Source of the DNA: a virus
Virus record (IMG/VR): IMGVR_UViG_3300045921_000389
Span: 1 to 20,391 of that record
Length of the DNA: 20,391 nucleotides
Direction: 5' to 3' (one strand)
Both the position numbers and the translations under genes were made by a program. Below the pieces are notes generated by a model that was not told the DNA's origin, searched no databases, and worked only from the letters and a program-made list of their open reading frames with translations. Of this stretch, positions 596 to 16,399 are shown piece after piece (positions within the stretch are counted from its first letter, which is position 1; every line of letters begins with the position of its first letter).

Positions 596-1094
596 CGAAC
601 AAGCCCTCTTTCTTCGCGGGAGGCGGAACCGATCGACTCGCCGCCGCGATCACGGCATCGTCGACCTCAAAGAAGCCCTGCTCGCCGCGAACGGGCGGGG
701 GCACGGCGAACGGCTCGATGTCGCTCAGCACCCAGGCGAAGCGGCCGGGCCCGTAGTCGCCAAAACGCAACTCCTGCTCGGTCGCGAGCGCCTTGTACTG
801 CTCGTAGAAGCGTTCGGAGCGCACACAGTCGATGAGCGTGCAGGTCGCCACGGCGACGCCGAGCGGCAGCGGCTTGGGGACCGCCCGCGGCGCCAGCCCG
901 CTGTAGCGGGGGAGCTGGAGCACCTCGAAGAACCCGGGCTGGATGCACTGAGTGAACAGGTCCCAGCCCCACTTCTTAGCCGCGCAGATCACCAGCGGCC
1001 CCCGGTAGTCGGTGTACCAGCCGCGGGTTTCAACTCGCTTGGCCCGGAGCGCGATCAGCGTCGCCCACGGCTGCCACAGGCTGATGGCCCGCAT
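588..1094 (-). CDS. ASCH-domain protein
   Basis: The 168-residue protein begins with the typical ASCH layout: ISLWQPWATLIALRAKRVET near the N-terminus, then GW and RGPLVICAAKKW at about 31-42, and later GDYGPGRFAWVL at about 112-123. ASCH domains are PUA-like beta-barrels thought to bind RNA or modified nucleotides, and some members are nucleases or N4-acetylcytidine amidohydrolases. In phages their role is usually unknown. The tail after about residue 135 is less conserved and ends in a basic/acidic patch. The start at 1094 shares its A with the stop of the upstream gene (TGATG), which suggests translational coupling, and a G-rich stretch precedes it. ASCH family assignment is fairly sure; the biochemical activity is not. 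Confidence 0.88.
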   Translation of the reverse strand: MRAISLWQPWATLIALRAKRVETRGWYTDYRGPLVICAAKKWGWDLFTQCIQPGFFEVLQLPRYSGLAPRAVPKPLPLGVAVATCTLIDCVRSERFYEQYKALATEQELRFGDYGPGRFAWVLSDIEPFAVPPPVRGEQGFFEVDDAVIAAASRSVPPPAKKEGLFDG

Positions 1095-2676: not shown

Positions 2677-2889
2677 CTACTTGCCAAACTTTCCGCCGCA
2701 GTTCGGGCAGGCGCCGGAGAACAGCGGGTGCTTCACCTGGACGTACTGACCGCAGCACCGACAGCGGTCGTGAATGAACAGGGCGTGCTCGAGCCCGTAC
2801 TTGCAGGCGCAGCGGCTCCCGCAGAAAGGGCCGATGCGGCTGGCCTTCCGCTTGTGACAGCGGATGCACGTGGGGTGCGGCTCAGCCAT
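2677..2889 (-). CDS. Cys-rich double zinc-finger-like protein, 70 aa
   Basis: Ten of 70 residues are cysteine: Cys8/11 (CIRC), Cys23/27/29, Cys43/45/46 (CRCCG) and Cys61/64 (CPNCGG). The pattern suggests two zinc sites, the second a classic ribbon with CRCCGQY and CPNCGGKF knuckles. The ATG at 2889 follows GAGGAGG closely and overlaps the stop of the preceding gene by 8 nt. A 29-nt gap separates its stop from the next gene start, the largest gap in this operon. It is probably a nucleic-acid or protein-binding micro-protein; no family name can be given. Confidence 0.78.
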   Translation of the reverse strand: MAEPHPTCIRCHKRKASRIGPFCGSRCACKYGLEHALFIHDRCRCCGQYVQVKHPLFSGACPNCGGKFGK

Positions 2890-3220
2890 CGACCCTCCTC
2901 GCCAAGTACTCGGCGGACCCTCGCTTGATCTCGTCCCACGCCTCGTCGTGGGTCATGCCCCCGGCGACCATGCAGTCGACCAGGGCGCTGACGGCCAGAA
3001 AGCACTCGGCGTTCACCACAGACGCCAGCGCCATGATGTCGCAGTGGCTGTGCCCGGCCGGTACGTCGCCACTCCACGTCCCGGTGACGCGGGCGCCACC
3101 GCTCTGACCATGATGGCATCCGCACGAGGAATCGAGGATCACGCTCACCACCACCCGGGGCTTGACCTCGGGCGGGCTGTTCAGGAACACGCGGCGCGGG
3201 TTCATTCCATCTTTGGGCAT
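2882..3220 (-). CDS. Hypothetical protein with His/Cys motif, 112 aa
   Basis: The start at 3220 has GAGG four nt upstream; an ATG five codons later (3205) is a possible alternative with a poorer site. A Cys/His cluster CGCHH at 33-37 and HSHC at 57-60 could hold a metal ion. Residues 62-110 look helical, with MALASVVNAECFLAVSALVD and then GMTHDEAWDEIKRGSAEYL. It overlaps its neighbours on both sides (19 nt upstream, 8 nt downstream). No family recognised. Confidence 0.72.
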   Translation of the reverse strand: MPKDGMNPRRVFLNSPPEVKPRVVVSVILDSSCGCHHGQSGGARVTGTWSGDVPAGHSHCDIMALASVVNAECFLAVSALVDCMVAGGMTHDEAWDEIKRGSAEYLARRVDG

Positions 3221-3573
3221 AGTTCCTCGCGATCAACCTTGGAGTAGTCAAGTGAGTGAGCGTCGGCAACCTTCCCGCACCACCGGCACTTGTACTGGCC
3301 GGTGCATGGGATGATGCCAGTCCACGCAAACGAATGTCGACGCCAAGACTCGGGCAGATCGCCCGTGACCTTGATCGTTCCAACGCGACTGCCATTGCTA
3401 TCCCTCACGACGTCAGCATCCTCGGCCGCATCGCACTTGGCTGGTGGACGTCGCATCTGTGCAAGCACCTTGTTCTGGATAGTGGAAAGAACCCACCCGA
3501 GTTCTCGCTCAAACGATCCGCCAGAAGCCAGAAACGCCGCCGTGTCAGTGTTTATCTCGACTTCAATCCTCAT
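3202..3573 (-). CDS. Conserved small phage protein with C-terminal zinc ribbon, 123 aa
   Basis: The ATG at 3573 is chosen for its GGAG five nt upstream and its ATGA overlap with the preceding short gene; the frame stays open to 3681 but that part looks non-coding. The N-terminus MRIEVEINTDTAAF and the later VRDSNGSRVGTIKV resemble a common small phage protein that normally has an N-terminal strand with INTDNAAF and a DxNGNxVG turn. Here about 60 extra residues follow, carrying Cys90, Cys96, Cys99 and Cys119, a likely zinc ribbon (KCRWCGKVADAHSL). The fusion of the two parts is uncommon to my knowledge. Function unknown. Confidence 0.75.
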   Translation of the reverse strand: MRIEVEINTDTAAFLASGGSFERELGWVLSTIQNKVLAQMRRPPAKCDAAEDADVVRDSNGSRVGTIKVTGDLPESWRRHSFAWTGIIPCTGQYKCRWCGKVADAHSLDYSKVDREELCPKME

Positions 3574-3719
3574 GTGCGCTCCAGTCTGAGGGCGATTCGA
3601 CGCGCCCCCTCGTAGGTGCGGGAGCGGCCCACGATGGGCTCGGACACCGGCCCGATGTCGCGGACCACCCAGAAACCGCACCAGCGTCGGATGATGTGAT
3701 GTCGGAAGTTATGTCTCAC
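3570..3719 (-). CDS. Short basic protein, 49 aa
   Basis: A GTG at 3719 follows AGGAG with a 5-nt spacer and opens a 49-codon frame ending in TGA at 3570, overlapping the next gene by four bases (ATGA). An in-frame GTG at 3725 lies on top of the ribosome site and is less likely. The translation reads like a real protein: an aromatic/basic start (HHIIRRWCGFWVVRDIGP) and a C-terminal helix (YEGARRIALRLERT). It fills what would otherwise be the only real gap in the operon. The shape resembles short phage proteins whose last helix has an Ala-rich 'ea...ia..l' pattern, but no family is claimed. Confidence 0.6.
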   Translation of the reverse strand: MRHNFRHHIIRRWCGFWVVRDIGPVSEPIVGRSRTYEGARRIALRLERT

Positions 3720-3915
3720 GCTCACTCCTCTTGTTCGGACAACCGCTCTCGTGGCAGGGACAGCCGTTGATCACCAGTGCCTCGCACTGGCTGCAGCGGA
3801 CGCGCCACGATCCGGTGTCGCGGTTGTATGTCGATCGGTCAAAGCCCAGGCGCCGCAGTCGCGGCCCCATCGGGCTGCGCCTCCGCGTCGGGTTCTTGGG
3901 TGTAGTCTCACTCAT
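3709..3915 (-). CDS. Small phage protein with CSQCEALVING...CHESGCPN motif, 68 aa
   Basis: The C-terminal half contains CSQCEALVINGCPCHESGCP, with Cys41, Cys44, Cys52, Cys54, His55 and Cys59. This C-x-x-C...PCHE-x-GCPN signature is familiar from many short uncharacterised phage proteins and is likely a zinc site. The N-terminal 25 residues are basic (RRRSPMGPRLRRLGF), which would suit nucleic-acid binding. The ATG at 3915 has GGAG seven nt upstream and an ATGA overlap with the preceding gene. The biological role of the family is unknown. Confidence 0.82.
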   Translation of the reverse strand: MSETTPKNPTRRRSPMGPRLRRLGFDRSTYNRDTGSWRVRCSQCEALVINGCPCHESGCPNKRSERET

Positions 3916-4175
3916 GCGCCTACTCCGCTGGGGTGGATGACGTTCACGATCTCCATTTGGGCGAACCGGCGAAGGTGAACGAGCTTGCCAGTCCGCTTCG
4001 CGATCTCCGCGGCGATCGGGCGCAACTGGTCGACGCGGGTCATGTCACTGCCCACCATCGGCACCCATCCCTCGGGCGTGTACATCGCGCACACACCCTC
4101 GTCGCCGTCCTCGTCGATCGCGATGAACGCGTACATCAGATTGATCCTGTGCCCGTCCTTGGCATCACCCGCCAT
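3912..4175 (-). CDS. Hypothetical protein, 87 aa
   Basis: The ATG at 4175 has AGGAGG six nt upstream and sits 11 nt inside the end of the ligase gene; the longer open frame to 4235 lacks such a site. The N-terminal part (HRINLMYAFIAIDEDGDEGV, then CAMYTPEGWVPMVGSDM) has alternating strands typical of a small beta-fold that monitors or binds something. The C-terminal part (LRPIAAEIAKRTGKLVHLRR) looks helix-strand. From its composition it resembles small phage proteins found near replication genes, but no named family can be assigned. Probably co-translated with the ligase. Confidence 0.75.
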   Translation of the reverse strand: MAGDAKDGHRINLMYAFIAIDEDGDEGVCAMYTPEGWVPMVGSDMTRVDQLRPIAAEIAKRTGKLVHLRRFAQMEIVNVIHPSGVGA

Positions 4176-4995
4176 GCGATCCCTCCTGCTCGGCGCGCAC
4201 GCCGTTGAAGCGAGGGAACCGCGGCACGCCCGCATCGGTCACGCCGCTGTGGCCGACGCGGATGACGGTCCCGGTCTTGGGCGGGTTCTCGCGGTCGGCA
4301 TCGGAGAGCCCGGTCCCGACGTTCACCGTGATGCTCTGCTTCCCGATGTCGCGCAGGCGGCAGATCAGGGCACCGACGCGACCCTTGTGCTTGCCCTCGC
4401 CACCGAGATAGCCGGTCACGACCGCGTCGCACTCGTCGTCGGCCTTGACCTTGAGCAGCGTGCTCGTGCGGGTGGGAATCCACGTCCCGTTCGGCTGCCG
4501 GATGATCAGGCCCTCGCCGCCGGCCTCGAGGATCTGGGCGAACGCCTGCTCCAAATGCTCGTGACTCTTGATCGGCGTCTGCTCGACAAGGTGGCAGTGA
4601 CCGATCTTCTTCACCAACTCGCGGGCCGTGCGGTAGCGGTCGAGAAAGGCCGCGTTCTTGATGCTGTCGGTGATGCAGTCGAACACCTGATAGGTGATCT
4701 GGTGCCACTCGCTCGAATCGGACTCGCGGCGCACGGCCCCGCTGCACTGCTGGAACTTGCCGCGTCCCATCCACAACTCGCCGTCGAGCATGTGATCCTT
4801 CGGCAGCCGCTCGGTGAACCACGGCGGCGCGGGGATGCGGATGGCGCCGCGCGTCACCAGCATCTCGCCATTCCAGATGGCGCGGACGCCGTCGAGTTTC
4901 TCGCTCATCCACCAGCCGGTGGGGTCGATCTTCGGCGTCCATGTGTGGGCAAGCATGACGCCCGGAAAGTTGGTGACCTTGGGTTTGGGGGGCAC
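4165..4995 (-). CDS. ATP-dependent DNA ligase (small, phage-type)
   Basis: It seals nicks in duplex DNA using ATP, through a covalent lysine-AMP intermediate. Numbering from the chosen GTG start (276 aa): motif I SEKLDGVR with the nucleophilic Lys33, Arg38; motif III DGELW at 71-75; motif IIIa FD at 105-106; motif IV EGLIIR at 161-166; motif V LLKVK at 180-184. An OB-fold domain follows to the C-terminus. The length fits minimal ligases (catalytic core plus OB fold, no extra DNA-binding domain). The GTG at 4995 has AAGGAG six nt upstream. A TTG at 5058 would add 21 residues, but it has no ribosome site and lies at the downstream edge of the promoter -10 box. First gene of the leftward operon; likely used in phage DNA replication or repair. 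Confidence 0.93.
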   Translation of the reverse strand: MPPKPKVTNFPGVMLAHTWTPKIDPTGWWMSEKLDGVRAIWNGEMLVTRGAIRIPAPPWFTERLPKDHMLDGELWMGRGKFQQCSGAVRRESDSSEWHQITYQVFDCITDSIKNAAFLDRYRTARELVKKIGHCHLVEQTPIKSHEHLEQAFAQILEAGGEGLIIRQPNGTWIPTRTSTLLKVKADDECDAVVTGYLGGEGKHKGRVGALICRLRDIGKQSITVNVGTGLSDADRENPPKTGTVIRVGHSGVTDAGVPRFPRFNGVRAEQEGSHGG

Positions 4996-5057
4996 GCCGG
5001 ACTCCTTGTAAAAGGCCTCGTTCTCGCGGCAAAGAACACTCTCCACCGGGACACCCA

Positions 5058-5086
5058 ATCATACCCAACACGTCCCATCCTTGCAA
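5058..5086 (-). promoter_or_regulatory. Sigma70-like promoter for the leftward operon
   Basis: On the minus strand a -35 box TTGCAA (5081-5086) and a -10 box TATGAT (5058-5063) are separated by exactly 17 nt, matching the consensus at 4 of 6 and 5 of 6 positions. It lies 63 nt upstream of the ligase GTG start in an A+T-richer patch of an otherwise G+C-rich sequence. The position fits transcription of the whole ligase-to-position-1 operon. No matching divergent promoter for the rightward gene is seen. Confidence 0.65.
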
Positions 5087-5186
5087 CTACACCACTCCTC
5101 TACTCCACCACTTCTGCACACCGCGTACCATCAGGCGACCAGCCCGGGCCTGAGCGGCGTGCCGGACGGTCTCGGAGTGCTCTGCG

Positions 5187-5399
5187 ATGAAACAGCAAAC
5201 GGCGAAGCAGGTGGTGGGCAAGTACGCGGTCGGAGCGACGCGAGGGCAGCGGCTCGGCATGGGCGGGCCGATCCCGGATGGCATGGGCCCGGCGCGCCCA
5301 ATGCACGGTGATCCGACGCGCGCGGTGATCAACCCCGCGGCGGCGGCGGCGAACAACACAGCGGCAGTGAGCGCGCCAATGCGCAGGTCGGGATCGTGA
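5187..5399 (+). CDS. Possible small Gly/Pro-rich protein, 70 aa
   Basis: An ATG with GGAG nine nt upstream opens a 70-codon frame on the plus strand, just right of the leftward promoter region. The start looks real (MKQQTAKQVVGKYAVGATRG, good third-position G/C). The centre is Gly/Pro/Met-rich (GMGGPIPDGMGPARP) and the end is an Ala run encoded by a GCG repeat. After the repeat, the -1 frame reads to a TAA at 5423-5425 with a more convincing protein end (ANAQVGIVTIPAKLPK) than the annotated frame. An indel or slippage in the GCG run is therefore possible. No family recognised. Confidence 0.45.
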   Translation: MKQQTAKQVVGKYAVGATRGQRLGMGGPIPDGMGPARPMHGDPTRAVINPAAAAANNTAAVSAPMRRSGS

Positions 5400-5447
5400 C
5401 CATCCCGGCCAAACTCCCCAAGTAAGCCGACCACGGCGACCACGGCT

Positions 5448-5482
5448 CACGCGCGTCGCGCACGCGCGTACGCGTGGGCGCG
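5448..5482. repeat. GC-rich direct repeat and palindrome upstream of the rightward gene
   Basis: A 9-bp direct repeat CACGCGCGT occurs at 5448-5456 and 5461-5469, thirteen bases apart. The second copy forms the left arm of an imperfect 26-bp palindrome (5457-5482, centred between 5469 and 5470, 11 of 13 base pairs matched) with CGCGTACGCG at its core. It lies 45 nt upstream of the rightward gene and is not followed by a T-run, so it is not a standard terminator. It could be an operator or other protein-binding site; this is inference. Confidence 0.4.
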
Positions 5483-5526
5483 AGGCTGGTCGGTCGGTCA
5501 CCATGGTCGGAAACAGGAGAATCGTC

Positions 5527-6189
5527 ATGCAACTGATCACCGGGATGATCTTCGCCGGGCCGCTGAGCGGCACGTTCGTCATGGATCTGCAGGGCTCGCA
5601 GGACGAGTCGAACAGGCCGCTGGTGCTCAAGCGCGGGGACACCGAGACCGCGTTCCCCGTGCTCCAGGCGCTCGGCACCGTCGAGGTCGGGCACCGCAAC
5701 TCGACGTGGAGCGGCATCGTCGGGCCGTTCGGGCGCGTGACCTCGGCCTCCAACCACACGCACCTTGAGCACGTGCTCCTGAACGCCCCGCCCCATCGCC
5801 AGCGCTTCCAAGAGGCGGCGGTCGATATCGCGGGCGACACGGTCATTGTGGGCACCTTCCTGCCCGCCGATCTGCCGGACCCAACCCACCAGTTCTTCTC
5901 CGACAAGGAGACGGTTTACAGGTTCCGGAAGTCGGGCATCGAGGGCGTCAAGAGCATCACCATCGGCCCGGGCGTCGAGGAGAAGGCGGGCGCCACTCGA
6001 GTCGGCTGGGGCAAGAACTTCATCGAGTTCCGCAAGGACGGGGTGCTCCTGTACCTCGAGGGCAAGCCCTGCGAGATCGTCCAGGTGACGACCCAGGGGC
6101 AGGTCCAGGTGCGGCCGATGGAGATCGGCGGGGCCGCAAAGCTCGCCACGGCGGTGAAGATCGACCCGGGCGAAGAGCGCAAAGCCTGA
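5527..6189 (+). CDS. Orphan beta-rich protein, 220 aa
   Basis: The only substantial gene on the plus strand. The ATG at 5527 has AGGAG with a 7-nt spacer; an ATG 8 codons upstream (5503) lacks a site. Codon third positions are strongly G/C, while the opposite strand of the same region gives a low-complexity frame, so the plus strand is the coding one. The protein has no signal peptide (short hydrophobic LITGMIFAGPLSGTFVMDL only), no Cys cluster and one cysteine, and is rich in predicted strands (DIAGDTVIVGTF, GVLLYLEGKPCEIVQVTTQG, VQVRPMEIGG). No family is recognised. It is followed within 40 nt by its own intrinsic terminator, so it forms an independent unit between two leftward operons. Confidence 0.75.
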   Translation: MQLITGMIFAGPLSGTFVMDLQGSQDESNRPLVLKRGDTETAFPVLQALGTVEVGHRNSTWSGIVGPFGRVTSASNHTHLEHVLLNAPPHRQRFQEAAVDIAGDTVIVGTFLPADLPDPTHQFFSDKETVYRFRKSGIEGVKSITIGPGVEEKAGATRVGWGKNFIEFRKDGVLLYLEGKPCEIVQVTTQGQVQVRPMEIGGAAKLATAVKIDPGEERKA

Positions 6190-6226
6190 TGTTCCACGTG
6201 GGACGTCGGGAACACGCAGCCACCCT

Positions 6227-6481
6227 CTACCCGCCGAAAGGCGGGTTGTTTTTGCGCCCGAAAGTCTCGTCCAGGGCCCGGGCCACGGCCTCCCAGCCGG
6301 CTCGGGTGCTCGCGACATCGCCGCGGCGATCGATCAGCGGCCTCCCCGCCGCCATGGCCTCGCAACCGTTCTCGGACACAGCCCACCAGCGAACGGCCTT
6401 GCCGTGGACCACGACAGCCACCGCCACCCGCAGTCTCGCCGCCCTCGCCCTAACGGATACCTCATCTGTCTGGCTGGTCAC
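6227..6481 (-). CDS. Small orphan protein, 84 aa
   Basis: A GTG start at 6481 with a full AGGAGG five nt upstream. The frame has strong third-position G/C bias. The protein has a basic N-terminal stretch (RARAARLRVAVAVVV), a Trp pair (VRWWAVSENG) and a helical end. Its last residues, KNNPPFGG, and its stop are encoded by the terminator hairpin of the convergent plus-strand gene. It lies downstream of the tail operon terminator, so it either has its own promoter (none recognised) or depends on read-through. Function unknown. Confidence 0.65.
   Translation of the reverse strand: MTSQTDEVSVRARAARLRVAVAVVVHGKAVRWWAVSENGCEAMAAGRPLIDRRGDVASTRAGWEAVARALDETFGRKNNPPFGG
6229..6253 (+). terminator. Intrinsic terminator of the rightward unit
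   Basis: A perfect 7-bp stem (ACCCGCC / GGCGGGT) closed by a GAAA tetraloop (6236-6239) and followed by TTGTTTTTG. It ends the transcript of the 5527-6189 gene, 40 nt after its stop. On the minus strand no T-run follows, so it acts in one direction. Confidence 0.9.
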
Positions 6482-6587
6482 CGGAGCCTCCTGGAGCCAT
6501 TCTGAGGGCCGCGCGGCTCAACCCCTCCCCACACCCCACCCGCGGCCTCGGAGCCCAGCGTAGCCAATCCCTGCCCCACCGCCGGGC

Positions 6588-6627
6588 CAAAGAAGAACCC
6601 CGCCCTGGGCGCTCCCGGGGCGGGGTT
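6588..6627 (-). terminator. Intrinsic terminator of the tail operon
   Basis: A perfect 10-bp inverted repeat AACCCCGCCC / GGGCGGGGTT (6596-6605 with 6618-6627), with inner GGG/CCC pairing possible in the loop. On the minus strand it is followed by the pyrimidine tail TTCTTCTTTG. It begins 36 nt after the stop of the last tail gene. A second small hairpin (CCGCG-CTT-CGCGG, 6639-6651) lies between. This marks the end of the long leftward structural transcript. Confidence 0.85.
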
Positions 6628-6662
6628 CGGAACTCTACCCGCGCTTCGCGGTTGGGTGAATC

Positions 6663-7115
6663 TCAGGGCGTGGGGGTGCGCGGGGTCGGCGGATCGAACT
6701 CGAACTCGACGGCCACGGCCTCGTCGGGAACGACCTCGACATCGAACTGGCCGCTGATCAGGACCGTCCCGGCCCCGATCCGGGCATCGGCGGTCACGGT
6801 GACGAACGTGGTGCCCGGCGCGCCCGGGGTGATCACCGCGCTCTTGCCATCGGTGGCGGGCGTGATCGTCGCGATCGAGGGGTCGTCCACCGCCCACGTC
6901 GGGATGCCGTCAACGGGCACCTCGACACCAGCGGCGTTCTTGAACTTGGCGCGGACAGTCTGCTGCTCGAGAGTCGTGATACGGGTGTTCATGCGCGGTC
7001 TCCATTGGTCGTCGTCAAAGAACTCGAAGCCGACCCGCACGGTGCGGGCGCGGCGTGGTCGTCGCAGAGCGTACCCCACCAGAAAGCCGATCAAAAATGC
7101 GATGATGAGGTTCAT
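6663..7115 (-). CDS. Membrane-anchored Ig-like domain protein, 150 aa
   Basis: Residues 2-17 (NLIIAFLIGFLVGYAL) form one membrane helix, followed by a very basic stretch RRPRRARTVR. From about residue 48 an Ig-like (BIG2-type) fold follows: TTLEQQTVRAKFKNAAG, IPTWAVDDPSIATITPATDG and GTTFVTVTADARIGAG are characteristic strands. The end is Pro/Thr-rich (PPTPRTPTP). The start at 7115 overlaps the upstream stop as ATGA. An internal ATG at 6992 (Met42) has GGAG seven nt upstream and would give a soluble 109-residue Ig-like protein without the anchor. Ig-like domains in phages usually decorate virions and bind carbohydrate weakly; a membrane anchor here is odd. Last gene before the terminator. Confidence 0.8.
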   Translation of the reverse strand: MNLIIAFLIGFLVGYALRRPRRARTVRVGFEFFDDDQWRPRMNTRITTLEQQTVRAKFKNAAGVEVPVDGIPTWAVDDPSIATITPATDGKSAVITPGAPGTTFVTVTADARIGAGTVLISGQFDVEVVPDEAVAVEFEFDPPTPRTPTP

Positions 7116-7939
7116 GGGTTGAGCTTCGTGATCCGGAAGGTGTTCTCGTTGGCGCGAACGCGCACGGTGCCGACCGCGGTGCCCGACGTCCCCATGTTGC
7201 GGAAGAGCGGCGCGACATACTGCCCGGCGCCAAGAGTAAAGACGTGCTGGACGTGGATGATCTGGCGGTCGAACAGCGTCGCGATGTTGGCGAGCGCCTG
7301 GCGGCGGATGCTGCTGGTCGCCGGGGTCGTGCTGTTCTGCCCGCCATTGATCGCAAACGCGACCTCCATGCTCGTCGCCGTCGCGCTCGTCACCTGAATC
7401 GCCGCGTTCAACTCGGCCATGTAGGTGCCGGCCGTCATCACCTTGACGTCGCCCACGCCGTCGCCGCCGGTGCCGCGGATGAACGAGTTGCTGGGAAGCA
7501 GGTCGTTGGTGTCGAAGTTCAACTGCGCCCACGCGTTGCTCGTAGAGTCGCGGTCGGTCGTCGACCGCATGGCGGCGCACGCCTGACCCGCGCCCATCAC
7601 GCTCCAGGTGCTCGTGCCAAACACCCAGATGGTGTTGTCGCTCCGGTTCCACACGCGGAGACCATGACGCGGCGTGATGAACCGCCACGCGTTGTTGTAG
7701 CGAATCGCGATCTGGTTGGCCTTGCCGTCCCAGGCGTTCCCGGGAGTCGTGGTGGCAATGCCCTCCCACACGATGTACATGTCCCAGTTGGCCGGACTGC
7801 CCGGCGCATCGGCGCGGGCGTCGATGACGCCGCGGCCCACGATCTCGTCGAGAATGATCAGCGCGTCGTTGTGCGGCACATGCCCGGAGAGCCCGGGCGT
7901 GAGGAGCGGCATCGTCAGACCTTGGGTGAACTGGCTCAT
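7112..7939 (-). CDS. DUF2793 protein with probable C1q/TNF-like C-terminal domain (tail fibre)
   Basis: Residues about 9-110 match the DUF2793 pattern: a start like PLLTPGLSGHVPHNDALIIL, then SPANWDMYIVWEGI, DGKANQIAIRYNNAWRFITP and a final strand set ending in VFGTSTWSVMG. DUF2793 proteins are common in prophage tail regions. From about residue 140 to 275 the pattern changes to a jelly-roll-like series: VMTAGTYMAELNAAIQV, MEVAFAINGG, HVFTLGAGQYVAPLFRNMG and NENTFRITKLNP. This is how C1q/TNF-like trimeric tips read. The protein is thus a good candidate for a trimeric receptor-binding fibre. The start at 7939 has GAGG six nt upstream. The DUF2793 call is good; the C1q-like call is inferred. 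Confidence 0.85.
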   Translation of the reverse strand: MSQFTQGLTMPLLTPGLSGHVPHNDALIILDEIVGRGVIDARADAPGSPANWDMYIVWEGIATTTPGNAWDGKANQIAIRYNNAWRFITPRHGLRVWNRSDNTIWVFGTSTWSVMGAGQACAAMRSTTDRDSTSNAWAQLNFDTNDLLPSNSFIRGTGGDGVGDVKVMTAGTYMAELNAAIQVTSATATSMEVAFAINGGQNSTTPATSSIRRQALANIATLFDRQIIHVQHVFTLGAGQYVAPLFRNMGTSGTAVGTVRVRANENTFRITKLNP

Positions 7940-7942
7940 CGG

Positions 7943-10276
7943 TTACCTCTGGAGGACGTGCAACTCGGCGAAGGGGCTGTCCCCGACCACGGTGCTGATC
8001 TGGGTGACGAATACGCGGAACCCGTTGTTCTCGGCCCAACCGTAGGGGTTCGATGCTGCGATTGTGTCGCGGAGAGCCTGCGTGAAGTCGAATCGTGGGG
8101 TGCTCACGACGGTCTCGTACAGGATCGGCGCAAGGTATCCGCCGAGACGCAGGACCACGCGGTACTGCTCGGGCCCCTCGTCGGTCGCCAGCGGGCCACC
8201 CGCAGCACCGAAGGGATCGAGCAGCTTCTTGGACCGCCTCGCCCACGTGATCGCCACGTTCTCGTCGCCCACGCCGAGGATCAGACGCTCCGCAGTCAGG
8301 AGCGCCGGGGAGAAGGGGCGCATGCTCCTCCCGCGAATCGCAATCTGGTGCGTATCGGCCTCGGCCACGGGTTGCAGATATGGGACGATCTTGTAGTACG
8401 GGTTGCCCAAGAACAGCGTCCCGGCGTTCCAGGCGCCGACGCCGCTCGATCCCTCGGTGAGAAACACGACGCGGGCGTTCCCGGCCATGTGGCTGTTCAT
8501 CAGATGCCCGGTGCCGCGAAGTCCGCGGAGCAACCGGCTCAGAATGTACTGGTTGCTCCCGATCGACGTGACGTTGACGAATCCCATGATCTCGAACTCG
8601 CCGTCGCGCTGGCGGATCGCGATGATGTTGCGCGTCGCGTTGAGAACCTCCTCGTCCGTCGCCGCCGTGGGAACAAACGAGTCGTCGCACTCCACGACAA
8701 GCTGGCTGGCATCGTCCCACGACGTTTCGCTCAGACTCGGCACGGGGCTGCTGAGCGTGAGACCCCAGGTGGCCTCGCGGGAGACGCTGCTGGACTCCGC
8801 GTAGGTCGTGCCCGTCAGACTGCTCGCCAAGACCGCGCCGCGGAACTGATCGTCGGGGTCCTGCCGCTTCGCGCCCCAGTAGATCCATGGCGAGTCGACC
8901 GCAGCGATGTTGAGCGCCGCCATGTCGCCGATCCAGTGGTCGAGGTCAGGAGGGACATAGCCCTCGAGACCGACGTACCCGGACTGATCGCCGAATCCGT
9001 CCTGATCGAAGAGGCCTCGCCACGTCATCACGGCGGTGCAGTCGACGCGGCCGTTCGCGCCGTACTCGGCCTTCTGCAGACGCATGTAGATCGGGATGCC
9101 CTTGCGCACGATCTTGATGACATCGCCGGCCGCAAGGTGGCTGTACCGCTGGGGCAGGCTGAATGTGAACTTCCGGCGCTCGCCAAACGCCTGCCAGTAG
9201 ATGCGACGCGCCATCTCGTTGGCCTCGCTGCTGCTGAGCGTCGCCGGGGTGTCGAATCGGATCTGGTTCTCCCGAGTCGAGTCATTCCGACTCGAATCGC
9301 GGTAGCGGGTCGACCCGGGCTGCAGGTTCAGATCATCGCTGACAAACGTGGCGCTGACCTCGTCGGGCAGATTCCGCTCGTACTCCTCCTCGGCCGCAAG
9401 CCCGTGCTTGTCGCCGGACAAGTGCAACTCGTCCACCGTGATCGCGACCTCGCTGCCCTTGTCGAAGAACTGGAGCTTGCCGTCGATCTCCTGCAGGCCG
9501 ACGTTGTAGGTGCCGAGGATTCGCTCAAGCATGTCCTTGCCGGTGGTCACGCCGGAGAAGTTGATGCCTCGCAAACATGCGCTTACCCGGCTCACATCGG
9601 AGTCGGTGCCCGGGACGTAGCCGCATCGCTCCATCACCTTGTTGAGAAGGTCGGCGACGCTCACGTCGTTGGCCTGACGGATGAACGCCTGGAAGTTCGG
9701 CACGCGGTTGCCGTACTCGCCAAGGTACAGGCGCTGGATGACGATGTAGACCTGCTTCTTGAACGCCGGGACGTTGCCGGTGCCGAGCACGCTCACCAGG
9801 AACGGATCGGGGCTGGTCTGGCTCCCGTTGTAGAGCGTGATCGCGTCGTAGAAGTTACTGGCGGCGTCGTTGTAGATGCTCTTGACATCCGCGAGAATCT
9901 GGTTCACGCGGTCGATGGTCTGGGGCTTGGCCTCGCCAAAGCCGATCGCGATCGAGACGTAGTACTCGTACGACGTGTTGCTCGGCCCGCCACCCTTGCC
10001 GACGCTCTGGGTGTTCGCCACTTCCTCGAGGTCGCTCATCCAGAGCACGCAGCCACCCACTCGGCAGCGCGGCCCCATCGACCAGTTCATCGGCGTGCCC
10101 TCGTTCGCCGACGTGATGCTCACGCCATCGACGCGCAGCCCCTCGGTGTTGGGTGGCGGGAACAGCGCGGGGAACAGCAAGTAGTTGTCGATGATGCCAC
10201 CGATGGCAGCACCGATCAGTCCTCCCACTCCGGGGGAGATCGCGTTGCCGACGATGCCGAGCGCGAGTGTTGCCAT
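7943..10276 (-). CDS. TipJ-like tail hub/host-specificity protein
   Basis: 777 residues. It starts with a Gly-rich hydrophobic segment (GNAISPGVGGLIGAAIGGII), as in many phage tip proteins of the GTA gp15 / lambda J group. A middle region resembles the phage-tail_3/TipJ part: RQANDVSVADLLNKVMERCG, then FSGVTTGKDMLERIL and EIDGKLQFFDKG. Later comes ANEMARRIYWQAFGERRKF with SLPQRYSHLAAGDVIKI, a typical fingerprint. The C-terminal third has the Rcc01698-like pattern (ILSRLLRGLRGTG, ARVVFLTEG, ITWARRSK). GTA relatives are about 1300 residues with a TIM-barrel hydrolase domain first; that domain is absent here. It forms the tail hub below the tube and probably contacts the receptor or carries the fibre. 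Confidence 0.88.
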   Translation of the reverse strand: MATLALGIVGNAISPGVGGLIGAAIGGIIDNYLLFPALFPPPNTEGLRVDGVSITSANEGTPMNWSMGPRCRVGGCVLWMSDLEEVANTQSVGKGGGPSNTSYEYYVSIAIGFGEAKPQTIDRVNQILADVKSIYNDAASNFYDAITLYNGSQTSPDPFLVSVLGTGNVPAFKKQVYIVIQRLYLGEYGNRVPNFQAFIRQANDVSVADLLNKVMERCGYVPGTDSDVSRVSACLRGINFSGVTTGKDMLERILGTYNVGLQEIDGKLQFFDKGSEVAITVDELHLSGDKHGLAAEEEYERNLPDEVSATFVSDDLNLQPGSTRYRDSSRNDSTRENQIRFDTPATLSSSEANEMARRIYWQAFGERRKFTFSLPQRYSHLAAGDVIKIVRKGIPIYMRLQKAEYGANGRVDCTAVMTWRGLFDQDGFGDQSGYVGLEGYVPPDLDHWIGDMAALNIAAVDSPWIYWGAKRQDPDDQFRGAVLASSLTGTTYAESSSVSREATWGLTLSSPVPSLSETSWDDASQLVVECDDSFVPTAATDEEVLNATRNIIAIRQRDGEFEIMGFVNVTSIGSNQYILSRLLRGLRGTGHLMNSHMAGNARVVFLTEGSSGVGAWNAGTLFLGNPYYKIVPYLQPVAEADTHQIAIRGRSMRPFSPALLTAERLILGVGDENVAITWARRSKKLLDPFGAAGGPLATDEGPEQYRVVLRLGGYLAPILYETVVSTPRFDFTQALRDTIAASNPYGWAENNGFRVFVTQISTVVGDSPFAELHVLQR

Positions 10277-10279
10277 GGG

Positions 10280-10708
10280 TCACGTCCTCGCCAGCATTGT
10301 TGGGGGGATGCGAAAGACGTGCGTGATGCGACGCGCCCAGCCACCCATCGGGGACTCGACCACGCGGCCGAGAGGCATGTAGGCGTGCACGATGTCGTCG
10401 GCGCCCACGAGCACCGCGACGTGCTGGGGCATCCTCGTCCTGCGGTTGCACCAGAACAGGACGATGTCGCCGGCCTCTCGATGCTGCGGGTCGATCGCGA
10501 CCGCCCGCTTCCCGATCTCGGCGGCGAGCGTGTGGTCGAAGGCCTCGCGGCTGTAGTTGCTCTCATCGGGCGGATAGATGCCCATCTCGTTGAGCGGCAC
10601 CACCACAACACCGACGCAGTCCATGCCGTCGCGCGACCGACCGGCATGGGCATAGCGGCAGCCGACGAGGCTGCGGACCATGACGATGTAGTCGCGGATG
10701 TGCAACAC
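10280..10708 (-). CDS. NlpC/P60-family tail peptidoglycan hydrolase
   Basis: A 142-residue cysteine peptidase of the phage tail type. The catalytic residues are visible: Cys31 in RDGMDCVGVV, His96 in MPQHVAVLV and a third polar residue, probably His108 in DDIVHAY. GDIVLFW before the His strand is also typical. It would cut cell-wall peptide stems locally so that the tail can reach the membrane. The GTG start at 10708 directly follows the upstream stop, with AGAGGA about 8 nt upstream. It sits between DUF2163 and the TipJ-like gene, the same order as in gene transfer agents and related siphophages, where it is counted as the tail-tip peptidase. Confidence 0.92.
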   Translation of the reverse strand: MLHIRDYIVMVRSLVGCRYAHAGRSRDGMDCVGVVVVPLNEMGIYPPDESNYSREAFDHTLAAEIGKRAVAIDPQHREAGDIVLFWCNRRTRMPQHVAVLVGADDIVHAYMPLGRVVESPMGGWARRITHVFRIPPTMLART

Positions 10709-11620
10709 TCACTGATTCCTCTTGGCGAACGGCGTCATGTACAGCTTGTCGTTCGTGGGCATGAACGGATAGCCACCGAAGTTGGCGAGGTTGTTGAACT
10801 TGTTTTTGCAGTGCCCGCCGGGCACGATCGCGCCATCGATGTCGACGCCGGCCAGCTTGTTGCACCCGGTGATCGCGCTGATCGTGTCGCCGACCTGAAT
10901 CGGAGTCGGCGGCGGCGCGGTCAACTCCCAGAGATGGCCGGTGAGCGTGTACCGCTTCACCACGCTGGTGAGCCCGTTGTTGTTCGAGTTGGTCCACGAC
11001 AGGCGACCGTCGTTAAAGAATCCGTCATCGACCGCGCCGCCAGCGGGTGCGCCGGTGTTGAAGCTCGCCTCGTTGACGATCGCCGTCACCGTGGCGGTGC
11101 GGGTCCACGTCGCAAGGTTCACGGTGCAATCGCTGTCACCCAGATTCCACCGGCAGGTTCGGCTGTAGATCTCGCCCACGCGGTTCGTCAGCCGCTCGCT
11201 CTGGCCCACCAGATCGGCCTCGAACATCTGCAGGGCGTCGTTCCATGTGACGTGCCCGATCCGGTACTTCGCGTAGCGGGTGCGCCCGGCAAACGGGAAC
11301 CGCCAGTCGACCAGGAACTCCTCGACGTCCGCGCCGTTGAACGTGCCCTCGCGGAGCATCTTCTCCGTCAACTTGCCGCTGCTGATGATGCCGCGGGCCC
11401 CGGTGTTCGGGACCGCCAGATCGCCCTGATTCACCGCGGCGCCGGCTCCGATCGCATCGGACGGGTAGTAGGTGTTGCCATCAACAACAAGAGCGCGATC
11501 GTGCTCGGTGAACCGGTAGGTGCCTCGACTCGCCTGCAGAACGATGGACCAGCAGCGCACCAGCGACGTGGTGCCCTTCACCATCAGACTGACCATGGCT
11601 GAGTTGAGTCCGTGAGGCAT
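10709..11620 (-). CDS. DUF2163/BR0599-type distal tail (hub) protein
   Basis: The N-terminal half shows the DUF2163 pattern: TTSLVRCWSIVLQASRGTY, FTEHDRALVVDG, then ADVEEFLVDWRFP and GQSERLTNRVGEIYSRTCRW. The C-terminal part has the BR0599 fingerprint GCNKLAGVDIDGA, followed by HCKNKFNNLANFGGYPFMP, a Cys-containing motif typical of these proteins. In GTA-type tails this protein (gp13 type) links the distal tail ring to the hub. The ATG at 11620 is one base after the preceding stop, and its ribosome site (AGG) is weak, so coupling is likely. Length 303 aa is normal for the family. Confidence 0.92.
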   Translation of the reverse strand: MPHGLNSAMVSLMVKGTTSLVRCWSIVLQASRGTYRFTEHDRALVVDGNTYYPSDAIGAGAAVNQGDLAVPNTGARGIISSGKLTEKMLREGTFNGADVEEFLVDWRFPFAGRTRYAKYRIGHVTWNDALQMFEADLVGQSERLTNRVGEIYSRTCRWNLGDSDCTVNLATWTRTATVTAIVNEASFNTGAPAGGAVDDGFFNDGRLSWTNSNNNGLTSVVKRYTLTGHLWELTAPPPTPIQVGDTISAITGCNKLAGVDIDGAIVPGGHCKNKFNNLANFGGYPFMPTNDKLYMTPFAKRNQ

Positions 11621-11621
11621 G

Positions 11622-12083
11622 TCACGTCACCTGTCCCGTTCCGGCGGCGTCGCCAGTCCCATCGTCGCCACTCCGCTCGTTGACGATCTTCCGCATGTTT
11701 ACCGTGGGCATCCCCACGTTGCGCCAGTGACCTTTGGGGCACTCGCCGCGCGGGTCCACCCACTTGCTGATGAGAAGCCGACCGCTGCATCCGCACTCTC
11801 CGCACACCGGAGCGCCGTCCGCGAGAACCGAGTACGCGCCGTTCGGACAGGCCTCGCACTTGGCCTTGTTCGCAGCCGCGACCTCCGGGGTCACCCGCAT
11901 CCCCAGGAGGCGCGTGCGGGCGACGCTGCTGACCGCAGATGCCGCGGCATCCACCTTCGCCTTGACGCCCTCGCGGGCAAGCAGGCTGAACCGGGTGTAC
12001 TGCTCGGTGGTGAGCGATGTCGGATTGAGACCGTACTGGCGAGCCAGTTGAAAGATCCGCTGTTGAATGGCAGTCTCACTCAT
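11622..12083 (-). CDS. Zn-ribbon protein inside the tail operon, 153 aa
   Basis: The N-terminal 60 residues look helical (QQRIFQLARQYGLNPTSLT, then REGVKAKVDAAASAVSSVAR). The second half carries CEACPNG, CGECGCSG and GECPKGHW, a Cys-x2-Cys...Cys-x2-Cys-x-Cys...Cys set that should bind one or two zinc ions. The ATG at 12083 has AGAGG seven nt upstream. It lies between the giant Cys-rich protein and DUF2163. Zn-ribbon proteins at this place are known in some siphophages as uncharacterised genes. It may be a tail-tip assembly factor or a structural linker, but no function is established. Confidence 0.8.
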   Translation of the reverse strand: MSETAIQQRIFQLARQYGLNPTSLTTEQYTRFSLLAREGVKAKVDAAASAVSSVARTRLLGMRVTPEVAAANKAKCEACPNGAYSVLADGAPVCGECGCSGRLLISKWVDPRGECPKGHWRNVGMPTVNMRKIVNERSGDDGTGDAAGTGQVT

Positions 12084-12093
12084 GCGATGACCT

Positions 12094-15000
12094 CTACAAG
12101 CAGACGTTGAAACTCACACTGTACGAATCAATCCCGTAGCAGAGGAGCGGGGTGGTCCCGAGGCAGTCGGGATCGCTCCGACCATCCCAGCACAGCGGGT
12201 CGGTGGGGAGGGTGAACAGGATGCGCGGACTCTCGCTCGGCGGGCACGATCCGCACGAATACTCGCCGTTGGTGCACTTGTTCCCGCGGCAGCGGAATCG
12301 GTAAGGGCTGGGCCCGCCGTGGTACTGCGACTCGCCCTCAATCCACGGCGCGTCGGGATCGAACGGGGGATCGGTGCCAACGCACCCGTCGAACATCTGC
12401 ACAGATTCGATGTCGCCGCCGCTGTGACTGCTCGACGTGTTCCGGTGCATCGAATCAGACCACGACGTGCAGTTGCAGTTCGCTTCGTTCGATCCGCAGG
12501 TAAAGATGTTCTCGCTGCTGCCCTCGCACTCGCCAAAGCCGGTCATCAGCGGGGCCTGCAAAGATGTCGAGAGCGAGCCGACGCCCATCGACCCGGAGAT
12601 CGTGAGGAACTTGGGGACCAGATCGGTGATGAGCGGATTGGCAAACGAGTTGAAGATGCTGCCCGCCGCGGTGTGCTCGGTGTAGAACGAGGGGTAGAAC
12701 GGGGACTGCGAATCGGCTGTCGGGAGCGAGAAGTCGGGGACGCGGGCCACCAGATTCTGACGCTGCCACTCCACGCCCTCGGTGAGCGTGATCGTGTTCT
12801 TCGGCTGCCCGGTCGGCGTGTACTCGGCGATCATGTCGACGCCGTGGATGCGGAAGCGAGCGGTGCCGGTGTTGTTCCCGCCCTGGCCGGTGAACGTGTA
12901 GCTGGCGAGCACGGTCTTGACCGCAGCGCTGTAGCGGCAGAGCTCCATCTTCATGTCGCTGCCGCTCTTCACGACGTTCAAGCCATACCCGTTCTGGTTC
13001 GTGTCGAGGAAGCCGATGCCCTGCGGGCCCGTCGCGCTGACGCCGCTGAACCCGCACTGGATGTCGCAGCCGAACCACTCCCACGGCGAAGCGCCGCCGC
13101 TGACCTCGTACTTGTTGTACCGGCAGTGGGCGCGGATCGGATTGACGCCGCTCACCGTCGCAACCGTGAGACTACTGGCGCCGCGGGTGAACGTCCCGAG
13201 ATCGTCGATGAGATCCACGTCGCTGCTGAGATACGTCCAGTTCCGGAGCGCGTAGTCGGGGTCCGGATCGGGCAGGATGCGGGTCCACGTCATCGCGCGG
13301 AGAAGCTGGTTCGCGTTCGGGACGTAGCTGTATTGCGTCTGGAACACAAGCCACTGAGTCCAGAACGTGTTGGTGTTGATGCACTCGCTCCCCACAAACT
13401 CACAACCGCTGCCGGTGGGGTCTCCGTAGGTGGCTGTCGTGCGCGTGCAGTACTCGTAGGCACTGATCACGGTGTCGCGGGGCGGCGTGCAACAGACGTA
13501 GTTGCCAACGCTCGGGGGCACAATCGGAGAGCCGTCAGGCGTGTCGGCGTTCAACTGGGCTCCCGACGCGGAGCGGAAGCAAGTATGCGACCCGCCTACT
13601 CCCATATATGGCTCGATGGGGTGGCCGTCGCAGTTGCTCATGCCGATCGTCGTCGGCCACTCGCCAGCGTCGCCGCCGCACTGATCGTTGCCGAGAGGGC
13701 AGTCGCCGTCATCGACGCACGTCCAGACCTCGCCGCTGTTTCCGCCCCCGACGTTCAGTTCGCCGCAGCCCTCGGACCAGCCGCTGCGGGTGACGCGCAG
13801 GAACGTCAGGCCGGTCCCCGTCCCGCCGTTCTCCCAGCACAGCCAGTCCATGGGGCGCGACCGCTTCATGTCGCCGCCCAGCGTCATCCCCTTGCCCATG
13901 TAGTAGCTGGGGCTCCCGGGCGGATAGCCAAACACGATGTTCTCGAAGATGCCCCACGAGTCGTTGGGCCAGTTGCTCTGGCGGCACGGGCAGGGGTTGG
14001 TGCACGCGCTGGTGTTCAGCCACGGGCTCCCGTTCGGGACCAACAGGCAGTCGTCGAGGTTGCGAGCCAGACCGTCGAAGCCACCCATGAACAGCTTGTA
14101 CCGCTCCTCGTTGGCCCAAGAGTGCCACATGCGGCCCACGGGCGCGTGGAACGTCGTAGGCAAGTGCGCGAGCGCCACGCACTGAGGGTGGATGCCGCGC
14201 TTCGTCTCGGGATTGGTCTCGACCGCCACAACCTGATTGCACAGACCGTGGAGCGCGGGGTTGCTGCGCCGCCACGTCGTCGCGCCGGTCCAGCCCACGG
14301 GCTTGAACGTCGTGCTGTTCTCGACGAACGACGGATAGATCTCGTTGGTGAAGATGGCGAGCGTGAAGAGCGCGCCCCACAAGCCGCGTTCCTGGTTCAG
14401 ATCATCCTGCGGATCGCCCAGAGGCCCGCCATCGTTCTCGGGATCGATGCGCACCGCTCCACCGAGCGTGTGCTCCATCGTCATCCTGATCTCGAGGGTG
14501 TACGCGGTCGGGTTGTCGGGAGGACCGTACTGAATCTGCTTCCGCCACACGTACTTCATGGCGATCAGGTCCGCGCCAGTCGGCCCGTGCTGCCAACTCA
14601 CCGAAGGCAGGTAGTTGCCGACGCGGGCGACGTGATGCCAGTTGCCGGTCTTCTCCGTAATCGGACTCAGCGCCGCGTCGTAGTCGAGAACATGGGGCTC
14701 GGCCCCGGCGCCGCCACCGCTGTTGGTGTCTCGCCGGTACAGGGCGTCGAAGAAGTAGGTGCTGAGCGTGTAGGTGCCGGCCCCGGGGTGGAGCGGGTCG
14801 GCAGAGAAGTCCCCATCGGCGAATCGAACCGCGATCTTGCTCGGCATCACGCAGTCGCAGGCGCGGATGGGCTCGCGGTTGCTGTTGCGCGGATGGACCG
14901 TGACGTCCTGATAGAACGGGGCAAGAACCTCCTCGGTGCCGCCGTCGCCGGTGAGCGGGCCGTTGCCGATGCCGCCCAGCCACTCGCAGATGTCCTCGAA

Positions 15001-15417
15001 GAGACAGAACGAGTTGTACGTCGGTGCGGTCTCGGGATTGGCAATCGCAGATACGCGATTAGTAGAGGCGTCAAGAGAGGAGTTGATTGCGCCGCCAAGC
15101 ACCTTCCGCCACGAGAGCACGCCGCCGGCCGACCGGGACACCGCATACGCGGCCCACTTGTTCGCCGCGAGCGTGTCGCCAAACGTGAAATCCTCGTCCT
15201 GGACGCTCACACTCACGCTGCCCGTGTTGATCGCGTAGAACTGCGGACGACCATGGACGAGCATGTCGGCGCGGACGGCCGCGAGAGAGGGCAGCGTTGC
15301 AATCGGGAATCCAGAGGGAGGGGCGCACCGGATTACGCGCGGGCCATCCCACTTCGCGGAGAATCCATCGGTCCCGCTGTTCGTCGCGCCACCGAAATGT
15401 CCTGCGGCTGTCAGCAT
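12094..15417 (-). CDS. Giant cysteine-rich putative tail protein, 1107 aa
   Basis: A long, clearly coding frame inside the tail-tip cluster, with about 40 cysteines spread along it and clusters such as CTNPCPCRQ, WTCVDDGDCP (about residue 565), YVCCTPP and RCRGNKCTNGEYSCGSCPP near the end. There is no signal peptide or membrane helix. Residues about 770-880 (GYGLNVVKSGSDMKMELCRY, later TARFRIHGVDMIAEYTPTG) read like a LamG/concanavalin-type beta sandwich, which would suit carbohydrate binding. The rest has no recognised family. It starts one base after the DUF2460 stop (TGA-G-ATG). Its place suggests a large virion receptor-binding or fibre protein. The cysteine content is unusual for a cytoplasmically assembled tail part. 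Confidence 0.85.
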   Translation of the reverse strand: MLTAAGHFGGATNSGTDGFSAKWDGPRVIRCAPPSGFPIATLPSLAAVRADMLVHGRPQFYAINTGSVSVSVQDEDFTFGDTLAANKWAAYAVSRSAGGVLSWRKVLGGAINSSLDASTNRVSAIANPETAPTYNSFCLFEDICEWLGGIGNGPLTGDGGTEEVLAPFYQDVTVHPRNSNREPIRACDCVMPSKIAVRFADGDFSADPLHPGAGTYTLSTYFFDALYRRDTNSGGGAGAEPHVLDYDAALSPITEKTGNWHHVARVGNYLPSVSWQHGPTGADLIAMKYVWRKQIQYGPPDNPTAYTLEIRMTMEHTLGGAVRIDPENDGGPLGDPQDDLNQERGLWGALFTLAIFTNEIYPSFVENSTTFKPVGWTGATTWRRSNPALHGLCNQVVAVETNPETKRGIHPQCVALAHLPTTFHAPVGRMWHSWANEERYKLFMGGFDGLARNLDDCLLVPNGSPWLNTSACTNPCPCRQSNWPNDSWGIFENIVFGYPPGSPSYYMGKGMTLGGDMKRSRPMDWLCWENGGTGTGLTFLRVTRSGWSEGCGELNVGGGNSGEVWTCVDDGDCPLGNDQCGGDAGEWPTTIGMSNCDGHPIEPYMGVGGSHTCFRSASGAQLNADTPDGSPIVPPSVGNYVCCTPPRDTVISAYEYCTRTTATYGDPTGSGCEFVGSECINTNTFWTQWLVFQTQYSYVPNANQLLRAMTWTRILPDPDPDYALRNWTYLSSDVDLIDDLGTFTRGASSLTVATVSGVNPIRAHCRYNKYEVSGGASPWEWFGCDIQCGFSGVSATGPQGIGFLDTNQNGYGLNVVKSGSDMKMELCRYSAAVKTVLASYTFTGQGGNNTGTARFRIHGVDMIAEYTPTGQPKNTITLTEGVEWQRQNLVARVPDFSLPTADSQSPFYPSFYTEHTAAGSIFNSFANPLITDLVPKFLTISGSMGVGSLSTSLQAPLMTGFGECEGSSENIFTCGSNEANCNCTSWSDSMHRNTSSSHSGGDIESVQMFDGCVGTDPPFDPDAPWIEGESQYHGGPSPYRFRCRGNKCTNGEYSCGSCPPSESPRILFTLPTDPLCWDGRSDPDCLGTTPLLCYGIDSYSVSFNVCL

Positions 15418-15418
15418 C

Positions 15419-16399
15419 TCAGTTCCCCAGCGCGTACCACGTCTTGGTCGTCAGATCGGCCTCCAAGGTCAACACCACGATGCACGACTTGTTCGCGGCG
15501 AGTGTCACCAGCGTCGTGCCGTCCTGATTCTTCACCGTGATGCTGTTGGCCCCGATGTTCTGAATGATCCAGTGCGGGCCACCCGGCTGATAGTTCGCGG
15601 GATTCGGCAGATTCGCACTCAGCCCCGTCGTCGTCGCGGAGAGCACCCACAGGAACGCCGTGCCGTCGATCGCGATGCTCGCGCTGATGACTCGCTCGCT
15701 CGAACCGCCGTAGAAGTAGTCGTTCGTGTGCGGCGCATCCTGATCGGCGACCTCGATGAGCGGGATGCTCGGGATTCCACCAAGATCCCAGCCGTTGACC
15801 TGCGCGTTCAGAAGATCGTCAGCGCCGTCATCGAAGCGGACCTTGACATCGAACTGGCCAGACCACTCGACCGCAAGGCCGTTGCCCGGCGCGACCGCAA
15901 ACGTCACGACACCGGTGGTGTAGTCCACCGTGTAGTTGACGCCCTCGGTCTGCAGCACGCCATTGACCCAGACCTGGAGGGTGCCGCTGACGGGCAGGCT
16001 GATCGTGCGGATCGCAGTCGTGGGACCACTGAGATATCGCTTCGCCAGTTGAAACACCGTGTTGGTGCCATTGCCGGTCGCGGGCGACATCTGCTGATCG
16101 CGGGTGCCCTGAGCAGAAGTGTGGCTCGGGTTCGTCGGGTTCGTCGTGAAGTCCATCCAGTCCTTGTAGCGGAAGGTGTTGAGCGCGCCGCTGCGGGCCA
16201 AGTAGAAGCGCTTGACCTCGGCCATGTCCTCCATGGAGCGGATGCCATAGCTCACGTCGTAGCGGTGGCGCGGAGCCGACCAGAAAGACACGCGGCCCTC
16301 GGCTCCGCTGTCCAGGGCGGTGACCTCGGTCTTGAACCCGGGCCCGCCGCGGCTGCCCTGGCCGATCTCCACCGGGAACCGGACGTCATGGAAACTCAT
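15419..16399 (-). CDS. DUF2460 distal tail protein with C-terminal extension
   Basis: Residues 1 to about 215 follow the DUF2460 layout: FHDVRFPVEIGQGSRGGPGF, then WSAPRHRYDVSYGIRSMEDM, KRFYLARSGALNTFRYKDWM, GNGTNTVFQLAKRY, and near the end the strand set VEWSGQFDVKVRFDDG. DUF2460 is the GTA gp12-type distal tail protein that forms the ring after the tube. About 110 further residues follow; they contain NYQPGGPHWIIQNIGANSIT, VKNQDGTTLVTLAANKSCIV and an end TWYALGN, a fold common in phage fibre proteins (short beta domain closing with W-Y). The family usually ends near residue 210, so this is an added decoration domain. The start overlaps the tape measure stop as ATGA. Confidence 0.92.
   Translation of the reverse strand: MSFHDVRFPVEIGQGSRGGPGFKTEVTALDSGAEGRVSFWSAPRHRYDVSYGIRSMEDMAEVKRFYLARSGALNTFRYKDWMDFTTNPTNPSHTSAQGTRDQQMSPATGNGTNTVFQLAKRYLSGPTTAIRTISLPVSGTLQVWVNGVLQTEGVNYTVDYTTGVVTFAVAPGNGLAVEWSGQFDVKVRFDDGADDLLNAQVNGWDLGGIPSIPLIEVADQDAPHTNDYFYGGSSERVISASIAIDGTAFLWVLSATTTGLSANLPNPANYQPGGPHWIIQNIGANSITVKNQDGTTLVTLAANKSCIVVLTLEADLTTKTWYALGN

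Follow-up and report, generated by a model that had tools for sequence, protein, structure and literature searches.

The DNA analysed here, the window, is an entire 20-kb virus record (20,391 nucleotides; IMG/VR record IMGVR_UViG_3300045921_000389), and all of its tail genes lie on the minus strand. Pfam and PHROGs searches gave the gene order tail-assembly chaperone, neck protein, tape measure protein, DUF2460 distal tail protein, a giant protein of 1107 residues, a 153-residue protein, DUF2163 hub, NlpC/P60 peptidase, Rcc01698-like megatron and DUF2793 protein (Table 1). The succession of DUF2460, hub, peptidase and megatron is that of an RcGTA-type tail tip, and the same families stand in the same order in RcGTA and roseophage R4C (PMC7296036, PMC10276861). 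The four conserved hub cysteines (156, 165, 253 and 271) are kept in all 6 hubs that were aligned, and the hub is predicted from its sequence to hold an iron-sulfur cluster. One feature of the RcGTA type is missing, since the short megatron of the window lacks the GTA_TIM domain (PF13547) present in the long megatron examined (locus L102). The window also encodes an ATP-dependent DNA ligase with an OB domain (4165-5058, minus strand), and a weak ASCH-domain match, below cut-off, was seen at 588-1094 (minus strand).

Table 1. Features of the tail-tip region, with positions in the window.
Feature	Position	Strand	Basis
Distal tail protein (DUF2460; RcGTA g12 family) with C-terminal extension	15419..16399	-	Pfam PF09343, E 4e-63
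C-terminal adapter domain of the DUF2460 protein (residues 218-326)	15422..15748	-	Comparison with the giant's N-terminus
Giant slot protein rich in cysteine (1107 aa, 40 Cys; ATG start at 15417, stop at 12094)	12094..15417	-	Frame, composition, nine homologues
N-terminal adapter domain of the giant (residues 1-112), opening with an M-[IL]-[ST]-x4-[FY]-x-G-G type motif	15082..15417	-	hhalign
Core region of the giant (residues 118-690), 22 of the 40 Cys	13348..15066	-	Composition, alignment, AF2
Predicted concanavalin-A/CBM66-type lectin sandwich of the giant (residues 722-936)	12610..13254	-	AF2, pLDDT mostly 60-88; VIA-align
C-terminal Cys-rich knob of the giant (residues 960-1107), 13 Cys	12097..12540	-	Composition, alignment
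Partner protein, 153 aa, CxxC...CxxCxC...CP...W motif	11622..12083	-	
Baseplate hub (phiJL001 Gp84_N + BR0599/DUF2163)	10709..11620	-	Pfam; PMC7296036, PMC10276861
NlpC/P60 cell-wall peptidase	10280..10708	-	Pfam
Short megatron, 777 aa (Phage-tail_3 + Rcc01698_C, without GTA_TIM peripheral domain)	7943..10276	-	Pfam

A family of cysteine-rich giants with a small partner

The 40 cysteines make up 3.61% of the giant protein, in agreement with the count of about 40 given in an earlier note made from the sequence of the window, and the frame is on the minus strand. Several of them stand close together (C187/C189, C472/C476/C478, C642C643, C784/C788, C981/C983, C1043/C1048 and C1055/C1058), and the N-terminus does not resemble a signal peptide, as that note had also said. 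Other tail proteins of the window contain 0-2.1% cysteine (tape measure 0, DUF2460 0.3%, hub 0.8%), with the exception of the adjacent 153-residue protein (3.9%). The giant was correctly placed between DUF2460 and DUF2163, but the gene of this small protein separates it from the latter. A 1073-residue plus-strand frame (12319-15540) was rejected as a shadow frame of the GC-rich giant gene.

No match to the giant was found in Pfam, PHROGs or the phage collection, and the best matches among PDB sequences (E 0.7 or worse) were at chance level. A first syntenic homologue, 33% identical end to end, was found through the neighbours of the giant (L002; L-numbers denote surveyed loci), and further members were collected by profile searches and synteny. 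The family now has nine members (the window, L002, L009, L010, L014, L018, L027, L092 and L177), all from metagenomic contigs of uncultured viruses and 27-35% identical to the giant of the window; the genome context, which the earlier note had proposed to compare, is the same slot between DUF2460 and DUF2163 in 9 of 9. Members contain 29-40 cysteines each (2.8-3.9%), and 16 cysteine columns are invariant in all of them (138, 144, 596, 642, 643, 657, 672, 679, 964, 974, 981, 983, 1048, 1058, 1093 and 1106). These are 16 of the 40 cysteines of the window giant (40%) compared to 57 of its 1067 other residues (5%), which indicates that the cysteines are under selection. Since nine diverged homologues exist and their cysteines are far more invariant than their other residues, the giant is not a chance frame. 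The number of cysteines varies in parity among members, and therefore not all of them can be paired within the chain; when losses were compared by eye, C1043 and C1055 were both gone in L002 and the other losses did not pair cleanly.

A small gene encoding 104-153 residues and carrying the partner motif follows the giant in 9 of 9 members, and elsewhere in the survey it was matched once, marginally (L023, E 0.001). Ephrin- and TNFR-like Pfam matches of the 153-residue partner were weak, below cut-off, and were rejected. In the DUF2460 tree, where deep branches are weak, monophyly of the carriers of a giant is not supported (4 changes). In L177, a 107-kb virus record (region 2876-8249), the core of the giant has an insert of ~110 residues.

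An adapter domain and an exchangeable slot

The first ~110 residues of the giant and the last ~109 of the neighbouring DUF2460 protein are homologous. Alignment of both adapters with hhalign gave a probability of 97.7 and a score of 72.4, compared to 14.5 or less in 60 column-shuffled profiles and 12.2 for the reversed control, and the giant profile also matched the DUF2460 C-terminus in the genome search. The adapter, or its motif, opens 8 of the 9 family members; in the exception, L177, a stand-alone adapter ORF and a 719-residue protein of unknown family come before the giant. The same domain begins the slot protein, annotated as kelch, of phage genome MW202657, and it also occurs within a tail fibre-like prophage protein (L264) in a genome from the class of Sphingomonas. 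Because of this last occurrence, the adapter may be a general tail-fibre domain, rather than a dedicated dock, that this group employs on either side of one junction. The homology suggests that the giant docks on the distal tail through its adapter.

The survey covered DUF2460 loci on contigs of viruses and bacteria, picked by similarity to the window and dereplicated to 196. An adapter-profile gene adjoined 0 of 138 plain DUF2460 genes (about 200-230 residues), compared to 34 of 43 C-extended ones (extension typically 88-142 residues) by profile and 38 of 43 by profile or motif, and the megatron was shorter in C-extended than in plain loci (median 877 residues, n = 29, vs 1323; Mann-Whitney p = 2.5e-13); since the loci were similarity-picked and the C-extended class is one clade, these correlations reflect few independent origins. 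A branch of the DUF2460 tree separates each class from the rest, and the cargo has changed many times within the extended clade. The remark of the earlier note that related tails usually have nothing of this size at this place is true of GTA-type relatives with a plain DUF2460, but extended-DUF2460 relatives nearly always have something in the slot, though usually smaller. In a third class, from sphingomonad genomes, DUF2460 is fused behind a TIM-barrel module and the megatron has 711-763 residues; three such proteins, encoded in GTA-like clusters, are L097:6501-8801, L162:6433-8766 and L127:6368-8719, with NCTSP N-terminal and TIM-barrel domains ahead of DUF2460 (Pfam, run on L097 only). From the megatron lengths, the presence of GTA_TIM and this fusion, the large peripheral module seems to have three alternative locations, namely the megatron, a fusion with DUF2460, or a slot protein of its own.

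The cargo of the slot differs among viruses. Pfam searches detected Kelch motifs in L012, L028, L038 and L040 (weak in L032), Laminin_G_3 in L044, the phage adhesin Gp38 in L022, and weak 3-keto-disaccharide-hydrolase matches in L024 and L031. A family-2 glycosyltransferase domain is fused behind the adapter at L043:10979-12574 and lies in the second slot gene at L045:8109-9146 and L049:7619-8776; it would be unusual for such a fold to serve as a tail adhesin or alongside one. Kelch-type cargo is followed by a homologous gene of 198-261 codons in seven viruses (L004, L012, L028, L032, L037, L038 and L040; the type was assigned by annotation in L004 and by the partner only in L037), and the L004 copy matches phrog_1409. 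With this gene common to the Kelch type and the CxxC gene common to the nine giants, each kind of cargo travels with its partner. Cargo proteins have a median of 2.7% cysteine in 33 viruses, compared to 0.3% in DUF2460 (paired test, p = 2e-6), 0.7% in the hub and 0% in the tape measure, and with the giants removed the cargo median is 2.3% (p = 6e-5). A 285-residue slot protein with 22 cysteines (7.7%; L033:10942-11799; no Pfam or PHROG match) is richer in cysteine than the giant. Near the end of the tail cluster of L010 lies a 166-residue cysteine-rich protein with a signal-peptide-like N-terminus (L010:10665-11165; no Pfam match).

Predicted domains of the giant

We ran AF2 on residues 118-960 with the nine-sequence alignment. 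Usable regions were confined to about 193-419 and 722-936, with about 55% of the model below a pLDDT of 50; a full-length model from four sequences had a mean pLDDT of 29.5. The predicted 722-936 domain matched CBM66 (4azz) with a VIA-align Z of 16.4 and an rmsd of 2.9 over 156 residues, the central fibre gp20 of mycobacteriophage Douge with a Z of 15.7, the CBM2 module of the phage J-1 evolved Dit with a Z of 13.5, and legume lectins with Z values of about 13. These comparisons place the modelled domain in the ConA beta-sandwich fold, and they widen to about 722-936 the LamG-like stretch that had been recognised near residues 770-880. Douge carries a ConA-like domain, similar to the one predicted here, in a tail-tip fibre, but its tail system is different and no relation to the giant was seen beyond this domain. 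Given the adapter homology, the lectin domain may be displayed at the distal-tail ring.

The core contains nearly all of the invariant polar residues of the giant (R181, E182, R185, D188, D207, H210, H262, E315, H410, E529, N530, H599 and H611), and about residues 193-419 are predicted to be beta-rich (pLDDT up to 88). This number of invariant polar residues exceeds the usual needs of plain binding and raises the possibility of an enzymatic core, for example a depolymerase acting on capsule or polysaccharide and directed to its target by the lectin domain. Several of the lectin-domain matches are glycosidase modules, and the megatron of relatives carries the glycosidase-like GTA_TIM domain that the window's lacks. 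Against this, the giant has no sequence match in Pfam, PHROG or PDB, and the core is only partly modelled and has no clear fold; the fold search of the 118-960 model returned lists filled by lectin-domain matches, none of them assigned to core residues 193-419. An enzymatic core is a possibility that we take seriously while holding it to be the less probable outcome.

The cysteines themselves can be read in a second way. A protein in the same position and with the same adhesin role could use them to bind metal, as zinc or iron-sulfur, like the neighbouring hub, a member of the iron-sulfur gpL/RcGTA family in which the four cysteines are retained (PMC7296036). Invariant core histidines and an acidic residue lie near invariant cysteines (H599, H611, and E602 in most members), and the CxxC/CxxCxC motif of the partner resembles a zinc ribbon. 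However, the giant matches no zinc or Fe-S family in Pfam, and the C-terminal knob, in which 8 of 13 cysteines are invariant in 9 of 9 members, has no invariant histidine. To our knowledge, C-C, C-x-C and long-spaced cysteines spread over 970 residues correspond to no known cluster motif. We consider metal binding unlikely. Because the cysteine-rich segments have pLDDT values below 50, the geometry of any disulfides is not readable from the model.

High cysteine content, a lectin domain and the lack of close database relatives might also suit a captured cellular extracellular protein carried as a moron without a tail role, which we regard as very improbable, as the gene has tail genes packed tightly on either side of it, its product has a domain in common with the tail protein encoded before it, and its position is the same in nine viruses; in addition, neither a pattern scan across the genomes of 84,980 prokaryote species nor a profile search of 385 + 398 genomes gave a cellular homologue. 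The profile search matched only the adapter domain, in the one prophage tail fibre-like protein, which leaves the earlier suggestion of a captured host-type module unsupported.

A candidate adhesin, probably anchored on the distal tail

Our preferred reading, which we hold to be probable, is that the giant is an exchangeable Dit-anchored adhesin, belonging to a siphovirus whose tail tip is of the RcGTA type, and that its cysteines most likely form disulfides after lysis. The giant would fold in the cytoplasm with its cysteines reduced and take its place in the virion; oxidation once the cell has lysed would most likely give disulfides that stabilise it. Before DNA delivery a host surface glycan would be bound by the lectin domain, probably acting with the conserved core and the cysteine-rich knob, and the giant would take the peripheral adhesion role held in relatives by the GTA_TIM domain of the long megatron. 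The co-inherited CxxC protein may assist its assembly or be a further structural component. The nature of the slot cargo, the shared adapter domain and the predicted lectin domain all support the proposal of the earlier note that this is a receptor-binding-type tail protein.

Carbohydrate binding at this site has precedents. Evolved Dits, as in Lactobacillus phage J-1 and in lactococcal and streptococcal siphophages, carry carbohydrate-binding modules at the distal-tail ring as accessory adhesins (PMC7291167), and the distal tail, hub, megatron and fibre proteins of RcGTA bear oligosaccharide-binding sites (PMC7296036). In evolved Dits, however, the module lies inside Dit, whereas the lectin domain of the window is in a separate, far larger and cysteine-rich ORF with a partner gene, the DUF2460 extension being only ~109 residues; in addition, the window tail is of the RcGTA type and the giant has a domain in common with its Dit. 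Plain-DUF2460 relatives of the RcGTA type differ from the window in having neither an adapter-bearing slot gene nor an extension, and their peripheral module is in the megatron (GTA_TIM).

For the cysteines, the closest comparison is Agrobacterium phage Milano, in which cysteine-rich virion proteins form a disulfide network in the mature particle and reduction with DTT lowers virion stability (PMC10491603). The likeness to the giant is one of cysteine-richness; the Milano network belongs to the head, neck, collar and sheath of a myophage, and the giant is a tail-tip adhesin candidate. This precedent and the sixteen invariant cysteines make the idea of a receptor-binding protein disulfide-locked after release plausible, with the disulfides themselves being presumptive. 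We did not find the giant family or the slot architecture described in the literature searched. The suggestion of a new class of tail protein holds only in part, in that the protein family is new; its function is of a known kind, the slot is used by many other adhesin-like proteins, and cysteine-richness is common to slot cargo generally, so that it is not a new class of machine.

More tentatively, and with less weight than the reading of the giant itself, RcGTA-type siphoviruses might have a general slot for plug-in adhesins. The socket would be formed by a duplicated tail-fibre domain, carried once by the distal tail protein and once by the cargo; cassettes of cargo and partner (the giant with the CxxC protein, Kelch with a ~220-residue protein, glycosyltransferase folds, Gp38-like adhesins) would be exchanged in it, and cysteine-rich cargoes would be redox-matured adhesins that a dedicated partner helps to lock after lysis.

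The receptor-binding parts of environmental phages usually go unrecognised for lack of sequence similarity. Here, position and a common N-terminal domain pick out adhesin candidates without any similarity of the cargo, so that any gene that follows an extended DUF2460 and begins with the adapter is a candidate adhesin. The recurrence of cysteine-rich cargo raises the testable question of whether these tail-tip adhesins are oxidised only outside the cell, as in the Milano network. Together, the presence in one slot of differing proteins, several of them adhesin-like or sugar-binding, suggests how such phages could change their attachment target.
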